Below, one piece after another: positions 7,665 through 12,079 of a stretch of 21,495 bases of DNA. The stretch's first letter is position 1; each line of letters begins with the position of its first letter. Both the position numbers and the translations under genes were made by a program. The notes beneath the pieces are model-generated. The model was not told the DNA's origin, did not search any database, and saw nothing but the letters and a program-made list of their open reading frames with translations. Location: positions 1-21,495 of IMG/VR virus record IMGVR_UViG_3300028738_000082. One strand, 5' to 3'. This DNA is from a virus.

Positions 7665-9110
7665 ATGAACCACCAACCACCAAAACCAAAAAAACTTATT
7701 GTAGCTATTTTTAACTACAATCACAACGAAAACGCCCAGCGGTTAAAGGAAATTTTTCAGCCGTACTTCCCGACTTACATTTTCGATTCAGGGTCTTCTC
7801 CTGAATGTCCGAACGCCATCCATTATGAAAACATCTACTACGGTGGCATGCTTAATGAACTTATTAAAAAAGGCAAGAATTATGAATGGTGTTGCCTAAT
7901 CACATCGGATGTAGAGATTGCTGACGAAATGGTGAAAGCCATTCCTGAAAGAATGATGCAGGTGTGGAATAACCCACAAGCAGGCAATTATCAACCATCT
8001 TGTGTTCATCAGGGGCGTTCACATGACTATGGATACAATAAGTCCACTGGAAACTTCCGTTCCGTGCCCTACTTTGAAGGGTGGTTCCAAATGTTTAGGA
8101 CAAGTTTGGGATTTTCGGTGGACTTATCTTTAAATCGCATAGGTTGGGGAACTGACCTTTACTTGTGTAAGCGCGCACGAAACAAAGGACTAATAAATAT
8201 AGTCGATGATGCCGTAGCTGTATTGCACCCAAGAGAAACTGGATTCAGTAATTATGAAGCTAATCAGCAAATGTTGGCATGGAAAGCGACTCTACCTGAT
8301 TTTGAAAACCAAATTAAAACCGGTATCGGTATAATCTGTTACGAGGGTACTGAGCACTTACGGGAGATCATAGAGGAGATCCGTGATGAGGTTGACCACA
8401 TAGTATTGCTTTGGTCAGATAAAAGTTATATGGGTAAAGACTGCGACCCAATGGACAAGGATGAGACGGACCGACTTATACTCGATGGGCTGGTTGACAA
8501 TATTATCGAATTTCCAGTTATTTCTTACGTCCCTCCTCGTGAACAAGAAACCATCCGACGTAACCAGGGACTTGCATACTTCCAATCTATCGGAATTGAT
8601 TATGCTTTGATTATGGACTCAGACGAGTTCTACCATAAAAAGGAGTTTCATTCAGCAAAAGAGGTTGTACGACAATGGCTGCCACAAGCTACATATTGCT
8701 ATTACAAAAATTACTACAAGTATAAAAACTGTGAGCTTCAGGATGATTGCTTTCCAACTCCGAGAGTAGTTCCATTCTTGTGTCATACGTCACAACGGTT
8801 CAAGTTTGATATTCCGTTCGCAAATCCGTCCGACCCAACACGTAGGATGTGGACTCATTGTAATATATTCTTCCAAAAGGAGCAAATTACAATGCGTCAC
8901 TGGAGTTGGATACGGAAAGATATTCGCAAAAAGATTTTAAACTGGTCCAGTATAGATGTATTCCCGAAACACGAAATAGACGAAATGATTGATTATTTTG
9001 AAAAGTTCGATGTAAATCAAACAGTGACGAGAATACCGCACAAGATTTTAAAGAATAAGGTTGGAGTAAAATTTGATGAAGATGGCAGAAACGAAGATAC
9101 ACGAATTTGA
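7665..9110 (+). CDS. Protein with two glycosyltransferase-like (GT-A) halves
   Basis: 481 residues. The first half begins with a Rossmann-like strand (KKLIVAIFNYNHNENAQRL) and has TSDVEI at residues 80-85 in the position of a GT-A DxD-type metal site, followed by a W/G-rich acceptor region (YFEGWFQMFRTSLGF...GWGTDLYLC). The second half restarts at about residue 215 with GIGIICYEGTEHLREIIEEI and carries IMDSDEFY, with the DSD triad at residues 318-320, the classical nucleotide-sugar/metal motif of family 2-type enzymes. It has no signal peptide or membrane helix, so it should act in the cytoplasm. Being between the portal gene and other virion genes, it may glycosylate a virion protein; host surface or DNA modification are alternatives. 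Substrates unknown. Confidence 0.7.
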   Translation: MNHQPPKPKKLIVAIFNYNHNENAQRLKEIFQPYFPTYIFDSGSSPECPNAIHYENIYYGGMLNELIKKGKNYEWCCLITSDVEIADEMVKAIPERMMQVWNNPQAGNYQPSCVHQGRSHDYGYNKSTGNFRSVPYFEGWFQMFRTSLGFSVDLSLNRIGWGTDLYLCKRARNKGLINIVDDAVAVLHPRETGFSNYEANQQMLAWKATLPDFENQIKTGIGIICYEGTEHLREIIEEIRDEVDHIVLLWSDKSYMGKDCDPMDKDETDRLILDGLVDNIIEFPVISYVPPREQETIRRNQGLAYFQSIGIDYALIMDSDEFYHKKEFHSAKEVVRQWLPQATYCYYKNYYKYKNCELQDDCFPTPRVVPFLCHTSQRFKFDIPFANPSDPTRRMWTHCNIFFQKEQITMRHWSWIRKDIRKKILNWSSIDVFPKHEIDEMIDYFEKFDVNQTVTRIPHKILKNKVGVKFDEDGRNEDTRI

Positions 9111-9683: not shown

Positions 9684-9716
9684 ATAAATTATATATTCTG
9701 GTTTTTCCATTTTTCG

Positions 9717-9754
9717 TACCCAAGTTGCTTGTGAAAGTAGTTTGGGTATTTTTT
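9717..9754 (+). terminator. Intrinsic terminator of the portal operon
   Basis: Stem TACCCAA (9717-9723) pairs with TTGGGTA (9742-9748), followed by TTTTTT to 9754. It separates the portal operon from the promoter of the large non-coding RNA. Confidence 0.8.
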
Positions 9755-9777
9755 ATATGTTAAAGTTTCGATGAATG

Positions 9778-9809
9778 TTTGGAAAATAGAAAAATGTGAT
9801 ATATCTTTG
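9778..9809 (+). promoter_or_regulatory. Consensus Bacteroidetes promoter of the large RNA
   Basis: TTTG at 9778-9781, a 20-nt spacer, then TATCTTTG at 9802-9809: both elements and spacing match the Bacteroidetes -33/-7 consensus. Predicted start is near 9814-9816. No reading frame follows for 900 nt on this strand, so it drives a non-coding transcript. Its sequence is closely similar to the promoter at 10649-10680. Confidence 0.8.
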
Positions 9810-10306
9810 TGGCATCAAAATTCGTTTGATGTTTATTTGAAATTTCGTAAGACGAGGGGGCGGTTCCCTCCAGCTCCACACAATGTCAGTTATTGTAGCT
9901 AACCTGTCGCTTTAGTACAGTTCAATGTGTTTATCGAGCATGGTCGGTTTAAGGGGCTGATATAGTTATTGATTACGGACAGAGTAGGGTAGAAGGAGAA
10001 TTTTGTTAGCTATAAAAGGCAAAACTATCAACACGTTTAATGCACCGCTTAGAGCAGTAGCGTAAGACCGCAAGGGAGCGAAATCCACGAACATCAGGGT
10101 GAAAGTCCCTGTTATTTGAGACTTAAAGTATTTTTGGAGGTTGAATCAAACATAGCGGTTGTCATTGTCTTGACTACGATACGGGGATGTTTGCAAATAA
10201 GAATATGTTATACCTCACTAGATTTAGTAACATATTTGGAGTATGGTTGATTCGTAATATTCATAACCATATTTGCGAAAACGACTGACACCGATAATTC
10301 GGTAAA

Positions 10307-10378
10307 TGGGACGATAGCTTAATAGGCAAAGCAGCGGACAACTAAGCCGTTTATGTGGTTCAACTCCACGAGTTCCAC
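10307..10378 (+). other. tRNA-like domain inside the large RNA
   Basis: Folds as a cloverleaf. The acceptor is TGGGAC/GTTCCA (10307-10312/10372-10377). The D arm is GCTT/AAGC with an 8-nt loop containing GG (10317-10332). The anticodon-like arm is AGCGG/CCGTT (10333-10337/10347-10351) with a 9-nt loop. The T arm TGTGG/CCACG has a canonical TTCAACT loop (10354-10370). The anticodon loop is abnormal: it has 9 nt, or 7 nt with A in place of U33, and no encoded CCA follows. A working decoder is therefore unlikely; it is either a decayed tRNA or a tRNA-mimicking structural element. Confidence 0.6.
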
Positions 10379-10574
10379 AATCCACAGAGCAGAATCAAAG
10401 CGTTGAGAGTTCAAGAGTAAAACACGCCCAATATGTAAATAGGCAGAAGGGAACGGAAAAGCACGGTAAGGTAACACAAAGTAAGGTAGGTGCATTAAAG
10501 GTGAATATGGTAGAATTTGAGCTAAAATTCGATGAACGCAGCGAGTAATCGCAAAAGAAATGTCGTAAGACGAG

Positions 10575-10610
10575 CCCCACACTGGGTATTGCAGTGTGGG
10601 GTTATTTTTT
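10575..10610 (+). terminator. Intrinsic terminator of the large RNA
   Basis: A 10-bp perfect GC-rich stem, CCCCACACTG (10575-10584) with CAGTGTGGGG (10592-10601), has a 7-nt loop and is followed by TTATTTTTT. It is one of the strongest terminators in the window. Confidence 0.9.
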
Positions 10611-10648
10611 ACCATAAACATATAATTTCCTTAAATAAATATAAAACG

Positions 10649-10680
10649 TTTGGAATATAAAGAAATGGGTTGTATCTTTG
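10649..10680 (+). promoter_or_regulatory. Consensus Bacteroidetes promoter of the small-gene operon
   Basis: TTTG at 10649-10652, a 20-nt spacer, TATCTTTG at 10673-10680, followed by TGG as in the large-RNA promoter. The predicted start near 10686 leaves a leader of about 23 nt before the ATG at 10709. Confidence 0.75.
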
Positions 10681-10708
10681 TGGGGTAAAAAATAAATACA
10701 ACAAAAAA

Positions 10709-10867
10709 ATGAAAAAATTTAAGAAAGGCTATTTTAATAAATTAATTAAGAGGGAAACGATAAAAATTAAACCTGCTTCATCATCTCCATTGAATATGGT
10801 AGATGCACCACTTTTTGCTTCGAGCGTAGGGGTTTTAAGGAGACTCTATCCAATTAATTCAAAATAA
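10709..10867 (+). CDS. Small basic hypothetical protein, 52 aa
   Basis: The frame is open upstream to a TTG at 10670, but that lies within the promoter -7 box, so the ATG at 10709 is taken as the start. It begins MKKFKKGYFNKLIKRETIKI, a strongly basic N-terminal half, followed by a Ser/Pro and hydrophobic half (PLFASSVGVLRRLYPINSK). No family recognised. It is the first gene after a consensus promoter and 6 nt before the next gene, which supports expression. Confidence 0.55.
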   Translation: MKKFKKGYFNKLIKRETIKIKPASSSPLNMVDAPLFASSVGVLRRLYPINSK

Positions 10868-10873
10868 AGCTAT

Positions 10874-11083
10874 ATGACAAAACAAGAAGTAATCGAATTA
10901 ATTGAAGCTGGACAAGAAGTCAAAACAGTTACCGATGCCCTTGGATTTTACACATTCTACATAGAATCGATGGGTTTAGGCTTATGTGCATATCACCACA
11001 GTAACGCCGATATGTGTAATGGAACTTGGTTTCAGGTGCAAGAGAATGATGAAATATTAAATATAATTTTAACACCGCAATAA
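10874..11083 (+). CDS. Small hypothetical protein, 69 aa
   Basis: Starts MTKQEVIELIEAGQEVKTVT, an amphipathic helix, then an aromatic beta-rich section (GFYTFYIESMGLGLCAYHH) and an acidic end. It contains two Cys and two adjacent His but no recognised metal motif. It is the middle gene of a three-gene operon, 1 nt before the next start codon. Function unknown. Confidence 0.55.
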   Translation: MTKQEVIELIEAGQEVKTVTDALGFYTFYIESMGLGLCAYHHSNADMCNGTWFQVQENDEILNIILTPQ

Positions 11084-11084
11084 A

Positions 11085-11351
11085 ATGGAAGGTACACTTA
11101 TAAGGCTTAAACGCAAAGAAAACATTGACGGAAGAACTGATTCCGAAGTAGCCGATGCAATGATACAGAGTATGGCAAAGCAACTTATCGCTGATGGTTA
11201 TTTGAGGTTCTGGAAATCCGAAGGTAAAATGGAAGCTGAAATGGACATCGCGGACGATACTTTAAGATTACCTGCGTGGGGTAGAGAATTATGGAATCCG
11301 TACAGTAAAGAAGAAACGGGAAGTGAAGCTGTTTGGAGAAAGAATAAATAA
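11085..11351 (+). CDS. Small hypothetical protein, 88 aa
   Basis: The product begins MEGTLIRLKRKENIDG, has a helix AMIQSMAKQLIADGYLRFW and an acidic centre (EMDIADDTLRLPAWG), and ends in a polar tail. The helix followed by DTLRLPAW resembles short Bacteroidetes phage proteins, but I assign no function. It is followed at once by the terminator at 11358-11384, which closes this operon. Confidence 0.55.
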   Translation: MEGTLIRLKRKENIDGRTDSEVADAMIQSMAKQLIADGYLRFWKSEGKMEAEMDIADDTLRLPAWGRELWNPYSKEETGSEAVWRKNK

Positions 11352-11357
11352 TAAAAT

Positions 11358-11384
11358 AAGAGCATCCTAACCCGATGCTCTTTT
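11358..11384. terminator. Bidirectional terminator, left copy
   Basis: AAGAGCATC (11358-11366) pairs with GATGCTCTT (11374-11382). It has T residues on the right, and an A-rich left flank supplies T residues for the opposite strand. It ends the small-gene operon. Confidence 0.75.
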
Positions 11385-11486
11385 ACCACCCAGAATATAA
11401 ACCAGCATAGTCGCTTTCGTTAAACTCAACCTAAACCTCTTTCCTCTCTTTCCCGTCCAACACAAATATCACACGCTATATCAATG
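11383..11486 (-). pseudogene. Terminase large-subunit 3' fragment, inactive
   Basis: Read leftward, this fragment encodes the same C-terminus as the intact terminase (ESDYAGLYSGW then stop) but has two in-frame TAG codons, one replacing the Tyr of ALIYR and one replacing the Glu of EVEF. Ten codon differences from the intact gene are synonymous against four amino-acid changes. It therefore seems to have diverged as a working gene (probably in a related phage) before being cut off and decaying. Nothing upstream of the CATTGATATA segment matches the terminase. Confidence 0.85.
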
Positions 11487-11548: not shown

Positions 11549-12079
11549 ATGAAAACAACTTGGAAAGAATTTATTGAATGGGCTATACCCAATGAAATTG
11601 AAAGAGAAGCGTTTCGAGTATTTGTAAAGAATGCGATTACTGGAGTCTGCAACGATAAAGCGATGTTATTGTTCGGAAGTGGAGCTAACGGTAAAAGTGT
11701 ATTAGCCAATTTGCTTTGCAATATAGTTGGAGAGTCTGGTTTTGTAGATAGTGGCTGGATAAGCCGTTCTTTGCCGTTAATAGAAGGAACACGTATCATG
11801 TTTATTGATGATGGTCTTAATGGGTTGGTCAACTATGATATTTTGGAAGGCATTATTGATAAGTCACCAATCTATATTGAGGGTCATGGAGAATACGCAC
11901 GAGTATTAACAGATTTTCCGAGTATTATTATAGTTGAAAATAAATTACCAAAATTCGATGGTGTACTAAGTAGGTCATTTATCATAAATATGCCAAACAT
12001 TCCAGAGAAGCCAAATCCACAACTTTTATCGGAGCTTATTGAGGATTTAGATACGATAAAAGAATGGTTTTTAGCATAA
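11549..12079 (+). CDS. Stand-alone SF3/D5-type helicase core
   Basis: 176 residues. Walker A is GSGANGKS at 43-50, and Walker B is RIMFIDD at 82-88 with the double Asp. A sensor-type IIIVENKLPKF follows, then LSRSFIINMP with a candidate arginine finger. This is the order of superfamily 3 / poxvirus D5-like phage and plasmid primase-helicases. Those proteins are normally 400-900 residues with an N-terminal primase and C-terminal winged helix; here only the ATPase core is present, beginning with a short helix (MKTTWKEFIEWAI). It would hydrolyse ATP and possibly unwind DNA as a hexamer. Its position among virion genes, flanked by terminase-derived repeats and terminators, marks it as a cassette-like insertion. 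Confidence 0.75.
   Translation: MKTTWKEFIEWAIPNEIEREAFRVFVKNAITGVCNDKAMLLFGSGANGKSVLANLLCNIVGESGFVDSGWISRSLPLIEGTRIMFIDDGLNGLVNYDILEGIIDKSPIYIEGHGEYARVLTDFPSIIIVENKLPKFDGVLSRSFIINMPNIPEKPNPQLLSELIEDLDTIKEWFLA

Follow-up and report, generated by a model that had tools for sequence, protein, structure and literature searches.

A probable short RNA operon in a Bacteroidota phage: a circularly permuted tmRNA gene with a downstream tRNA-like element

The tmRNA is an RNA that rescues stalled ribosomes and tags the incomplete protein. In phages, it can be encoded in a circularly permuted form with two pieces: 53 two-piece cases have been described among phage genomes (PMC9004378), and further permuted tmRNAs of phages are documented in PMC11915505. 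In the two-piece pathway, a segment is excised, CCA is added, alanine is attached by way of the G3·U70 pair, and the RNA then acts with SmpB in rescue and tagging (PMC11915505). Phage DS6A carries a tag-less tmRNA-like RNA that is reported to be a decoy or inhibitor of the host tmRNA (PMC11915505). Permuted tmRNAs are already annotated in records of crass-like phages, and several such records carry them without annotation. These genes are found in the Loutivirinae, Uncouvirinae and Boorivirinae (cr60_1, cr53_1, cr52_1, cr114_1, cr125_1, cr115_1, cr10_1). The permuted tmRNAs of aquatic phages (L106, L115, L147 and others; compare Melnitz, PMC9004378), referred to below as alpha-type, form a comparison class.

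The DNA analysed here (the window) is a single virus record of 21,495 bases, in which genes of the portal, terminase large subunit (TerL), major head and tape-measure proteins surround the interval 9778–10610. Among the relatives of the TerL and head genes that have a recorded host, the nearest infect Parabacteroides, Bacteroides and Phocaeicola (Bacteroidales), so the host very probably belongs to Bacteroidota. No open reading frame of 50 or more residues is present on the plus strand between 9683 and 10670, and the frames found there are short and all on the minus strand. The interval is bracketed by an intact promoter and an intact terminator, both on the plus strand. The promoter, found by a pattern scan, is of the Bacteroidetes −33/−7 type (TTTGG...TATATCTTTG, 9778–9809) with the layout TTTG-N20-TATATCTTTG; the pattern TTTGN{17,23}TANNTTTG occurs five times in the window, versus 1.4 occurrences expected. 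The same 32-nt layout heads the syntenic RNA blocks of two related phages, L004 (12464–12433) and L005 (13347–13316). The intrinsic terminator (10573–10610) consists of a hairpin with 12 pairs (10573–10603) followed by a run of T. Another promoter of this type (TTTGG...TATCTTTG) lies directly past the terminator, at 10649–10680, upstream of small ORFs at 10670–11351. A preliminary description of this DNA had pointed to the promoter, the terminator, the lack of a rightward reading frame of note and a tRNA-like element, all of which are borne out, and its view that the interval is a separate non-coding RNA gene of about 800 nt, transcribed independently and containing such an element, looks right; the excess of folding that it also described is not found (see below). 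Most likely, the interval is a short operon of RNA genes in a Bacteroidota phage, with a two-piece tmRNA followed by a tRNA-like element.

The 5′ half of the interval is a permuted tmRNA gene. The Rfam model tmRNA_permuted (RF04321) covers 9819–10065 with a score of 51.3 bits (cut-off 47, E = 1.3e-7, whole window searched) and is the sole above-threshold Rfam match in the whole-window search, while alpha_tmRNA, with a score below its cut-off, spans the T-arm, acceptor and D region as well. The tRNA-like domain, which is complete, is made up of a 5-bp T-stem, a 7-bp acceptor stem, a 7-bp P2 helix and a GAC linker arranged in permuted order, with all 19 pairs formed. The acceptor piece opens with the 3′ strand of P2 (TTCGTAA, 9844–9850), which is followed by the GAC linker (9851–9853), the T-arm GAGGG-GGCGGTT-CCCTC (9854–9870, 5/5 pairs), the acceptor 3′ strand CAGCTCC (9871–9877) and the discriminator A9878; no CCA is encoded. 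Next comes an intervening segment (9879–9952), which is flanked by the 3′ and 5′ strands of the acceptor stem and, judging by this position, would be excised. The coding piece opens with the acceptor 5′ strand GGGGCTG (9953–9959), which lies downstream of both the T-arm and the acceptor 3′ strand and was assigned by the Rfam alignment, a descriptor search and covariation. It forms 7/7 pairs with 9871–9877, G3·U70 among them. A D-loop-like segment, ATATAGTTATTGA (9960–9972), leads to the 5′ strand of P2 (TTACGGA, 9973–9979), which forms 7/7 pairs with 9844–9850, compensatory relative to other phages, and so joins the two pieces beside the GAC linker. All these features are on the plus strand. 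In the sequence alignment, the D-loop-like segment is diverged from the usual AAATAGGATCGA: its motif is TTATTGA in place of GATCGA/TTTGA, the position of the conserved UUCGAC/GAUCGAC motif reads ATTGAT, and its A.ATAG part fits the GGCGGTN class of T-loops.

The descriptor, which used the pairings plus GG, GAC and G3·U70 only, fits once in 43 kb (the window, both strands) and not at all in 860 kb of shuffled window sequence, and it also picks out genes of crass-like phages, one gene of a Chryseobacterium phage and L147. A standard tmRNA (RF00023) was considered and rejected: the T-arm begins 164 nt upstream of the tag, not 3′ of it, and the model gives no above-threshold match. ARAGORN reported only the tRNA-like element and no tmRNA in the interval, and permuted tmRNAs of Bacteroidota phages are therefore easily missed.

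Related gut phages have the same kind of gene, and that of the window is a further permuted tmRNA, unusual in a few respects. Of the matches to RF04321 at 28–38 bits in a set of 296 Bacteroidota genomes, the five that were examined all proved to be standard tmRNA genes, so a single true permuted tmRNA, L149 (G245), counts among these genomes. It is located on a Bacteroidota chromosome, adjoins genes of tRNA-Met and tRNA-Ile, and encodes the tag GKVIQMNNAPVRLAA. A blastn search from L149 led to permuted tmRNAs of crass-like phages and of a Chryseobacterium phage (MA9V-3), several of which are annotated as tmRNA or SsrA. The tmRNA of Cellulophaga phage Calle_1 was rejected as a permuted homologue on account of its standard order. 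On the same Rfam model, the tmRNAs of these Bacteroidota phages score 37.5–64.7 bits, which makes the 51.3 bits of the window typical. Like the window, they have the permuted order, in several cases with the T-stem GAGGG/CCCTC, a resume codon GG(C/A), a tag that ends in LAA, LVA, IAA or AVA and, in the sequences inspected, no encoded CCA. They differ in having TTCGACT-like T-loops in place of GGCGGTT, whereas the D-loop of the window is of the ATATAG type and its predicted transcript is much longer, with long spacers. L149 shares with the window the length and pattern of the tag, an identical T-stem and acceptor, and a motif after the tag; unlike the window, it has the T-loop TTCGACT and tRNA genes upstream, not downstream, of the tmRNA. 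Alpha-type tmRNAs resemble the window in the GGCGGTN T-loop with an A.ATAG-type D-loop and in the same acceptor stem, but in the sequences inspected they encode CCA, and they have ANDNFAP..ALAA-like tags and scores of 65–125 bits. Searches with the block itself returned weak local matches only (blastn of the whole block against phages, no close nucleotide homologue), and three DNA patterns drawn from its arms had no match in IMG/VR.

The T-loop class GGCGGTN marks permuted tmRNAs. The T-arm pattern occurs in at least 119 viral stretches; among the matches listed, 112 of 119 have the acceptor 5′ strand downstream (permuted) and none has it upstream (standard). Rescoring of 15 of the T-arm loci gave 65–125 bits for the permuted-tmRNA matches listed. 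GGCGGTN loops occur together with A.ATAG-type D-loops and TTCRANT loops with NNNGG-type D-loops, the window belonging to the first class; contact between the two loops would lead one to expect this association. In a comparison of 20 phage sequences, the GAC linker is identical and G3·U70 is present in all 20, the T-stem and acceptor pairs are all standard, and compensatory changes, which include changes in the T-stem, are found in 7 of 12 pairs, a count obtained with our own script from a hand-set alignment of selected sequences, part of them found by the same descriptor, and ignoring phylogeny. At the base of P2, the window, L147 and cr115_1 have U-A where the others have C-G. The preliminary description had looked to homologues in Bacteroidetes phages for compensatory changes in its hairpins; such homologues were indeed found among Bacteroidota phages, in the form of permuted tmRNA genes, with compensatory changes located in the stems of the tmRNA instead of the hairpins stressed there.

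The tag frame (10018–10065, plus strand) encodes GKTINTFNAPLRAVA, beginning with GGC at 10018, which is preceded by CTATAAAA, and ending with TAA at 10063; its end coincides with that of the Rfam match. Both the small hydrophobic C-terminus and the resume codon are where they are expected in a tmRNA tag. The tags of Bacteroidota phages open with GG(C/A) 59–62 nt into the coding piece, and that of the window would open at 65 nt; from this comparison, GGC 10018 is the probable resume codon, and the tag frame and C-terminus hold whichever codon serves. These phage tags end in LAA, LVA, IAA, VAA or AVA, the last common to the window and cr10_1. The tags of the window and L149 are equal in length, share the resume codon GGC, and have the residues G, K, I, N, A, P, R and A in common, each in the same place. 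The segment after the tag (10066–10125) is probably the 3′ part of the coding piece. It contains a hairpin, CAGGG..CCCTG (10095–10111), found by a hairpin scan, and is similar by eye to its counterpart in L149 (GGGAGCGAAATC versus GGGGAGAGCGAAATC). The window combines an alpha-like T-loop with a Bacteroidota-like tag, which makes it useful for tracing the trade of phage tmRNA genes across phyla; this combination and the long predicted transcript are unusual.

From the observed sequence, structure, conserved pairing, homologues and tag frame, we infer that the RNA functions in ribosome rescue and tagging with the host SmpB; the steps from transcription and processing to charging, rescue and phage benefit are drawn by analogy. 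A single precursor of about 795 nt would be made from its own promoter, containing first the permuted tmRNA (~9815–10125) and then the tRNA-like element (10307–10378). Enzymes of tRNA processing would excise 9879–9952, as in known permuted tmRNAs, and CCA would be added behind A9878, with the acceptor and coding pieces held together by the acceptor stem and P2. Host alanyl-tRNA synthetase would charge the tmRNA via G3·U70, and the charged RNA would enter ribosomes stalled on broken mRNA together with host SmpB and EF-Tu. Translation would then restart at GGC 10018, GKTINTFNAPLRAVA would be appended, and the ribosome would be released at UAA; the phage would benefit if ribosomes stay usable during decay of host mRNA.

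Because the D-loop motif is diverged, decay and an inhibitory role have to be weighed against the rescue function. An RNA that acts as a decoy or inhibitor of the host tmRNA, with the tRNA-like domain alone being of importance, would fit this divergence and a host that presumably owns a tmRNA, but DS6A-type RNAs lack a tag, whereas here the tag frame is kept, with a resume context like that of Bacteroidota phages and a degron-like end; we regard such a role as quite improbable. Decay, i.e. a formerly working operon of permuted tmRNA and tRNA that is now a pseudogene kept in its slot by chance, is unlikely, yet the better of these two alternatives. It would account not only for the D-loop but also for the lack of sequence conservation between the block and its counterparts in L004 and L005 and for the state of the tRNA-like element. 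The latter (10307–10378, plus strand) is called tRNA-Ser(act) by ARAGORN and matches the Rfam tRNA model with 32.1 bits (cut-off 29), in line with the preliminary description, and fails features of functional tRNAs: two inner acceptor pairs are mismatched, and position 33 is A, not U. Against decay, every one of the 19 pairs in the tRNA-like domain is preserved, compensated pairs in P2 and the T-stem among them, the tag frame is unbroken and has a plausible C-terminus, both promoter and terminator are preserved, and the score is on par with that of other Bacteroidota phages. A weak tRNA (31.5 bits) also lies directly behind the tmRNA of cr60_1, so such elements may be usual in these phages.

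The spacers on either side of the tRNA-like element (10126–10306 and 10379–10572) comprise about 370 nt together. It is rather improbable that the ~480 nt past the tmRNA (10126–10605), tRNA-like element included, are a functional RNA in themselves, in which case the unalignable syntenic blocks in L004 and L005 would represent rapidly evolving forms of a single RNA machine, not spacers of a tRNA/tmRNA operon.

The preliminary description had proposed a diverged member of the giant ornate RNAs GOLLD and ROOL, or a new class of this kind. On such a reading, the tRNA-like parts would be passengers. The size of about 800 nt, the phage origin, the internal tRNA-like element and the tRNA slot of the relatives do recall these RNAs, but their elaborate conserved folding is not evident here. 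The MFE z-score of the interval relative to shuffles is −1.97 with the terminator and −0.5 without it, and apart from the terminator and the tRNA-like element, the sub-regions have MFEs that are no lower than the shuffled mean or differ from it by less than 0.7 s.d. The many perfect hairpins reported earlier are no more numerous than expected by chance, and thermodynamic stability was dropped as evidence for a structured RNA. The longest exact long-range helix (11 bp, 10036–10046/10489–10499) was likewise dropped, being equalled or exceeded in 5 of 60 shuffles. The comparison with Rfam that had been suggested, tmRNA models included, gave tmRNA_permuted and tRNA above their gathering scores, and no GOLLD, ROOL or other family at E ≤ 10 in 9700–10700 besides tmRNA, tRNA and chance matches. 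With the tmRNA accounting for the 5′ third, an ornate RNA is highly improbable. The reading as a discrete non-coding gene with a tRNA-like element stands, and the tempting call of a giant RNA is corrected by the permuted tmRNA.

The position of the operon is shared by related phages. In L004 (TerL 90% identical) and L005 (63%), the flanking genes are retained and enclose an ORF-poor block with the same promoter layout, which holds three good tRNAs in L005, tRNA-Ile(tat), tRNA-Ser(tga) and tRNA-Ala(tgc), and a single weak tRNA-like element in L004. The slot beside the terminase gene is therefore best read as the site of the tRNA/tmRNA operon of this lineage, its content apparently turning over quickly; the window thus defines a terminase-adjacent slot that holds tRNAs or a tmRNA in related phages. 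RF04321 has no match in L004 or L005, alignments of the three syntenic blocks score no higher than shuffled controls, and the slot of a more distant relative, L016, contains neither tRNA nor tmRNA. On the minus strand 3′ of the block, L004 (~11860–11770) and L005 (~12485–12395) have a conserved element, GCCGTAGC...TAAGCCTACGG.GATGGAC.GCTACTCCTGA.CCG.TAGGCTTAT, that resembles a structured RNA or terminator and was not seen in the window. Adjoining the intact terminase gene, the window contains an incomplete second copy of the terminase 3′ end (82% identical) beside a fragment of a primase/D5-like helicase (11350–11486 and 11549–12079). The homologue of this fragment is placed elsewhere in L004 and L005, which points to a local rearrangement. 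Upstream, 7665–9110 encodes a 481-residue protein of no known family, the second half of which is similar to proteins from the 540-kb Lak phages of Prevotella.

In L173 (cr56_1; 518–1099) and also in L162 (cr113_1), an endonuclease gene lies on the opposite strand within the intervening segment of the permuted tmRNA; in cr56_1, it sits between the segment with P2 and the acceptor side and the coding piece (GGGGCTAAACGG at 1172), and the T-arm of this copy was not located. In L165 (cr114_1), an intact tRNA (571–642, 63 bits) occupies the intervening segment, with the T-arm at ~534 and the coding piece from 721. RAGATH-9 and RAGATH-20 RNAs (Rfam) are found just 5′ of the permuted tmRNA in crass-like phages: L156 (71–228 and 1163–1264), L163 (42–144), L164 (314–482), L165 (47–214) and L166 (255–434).
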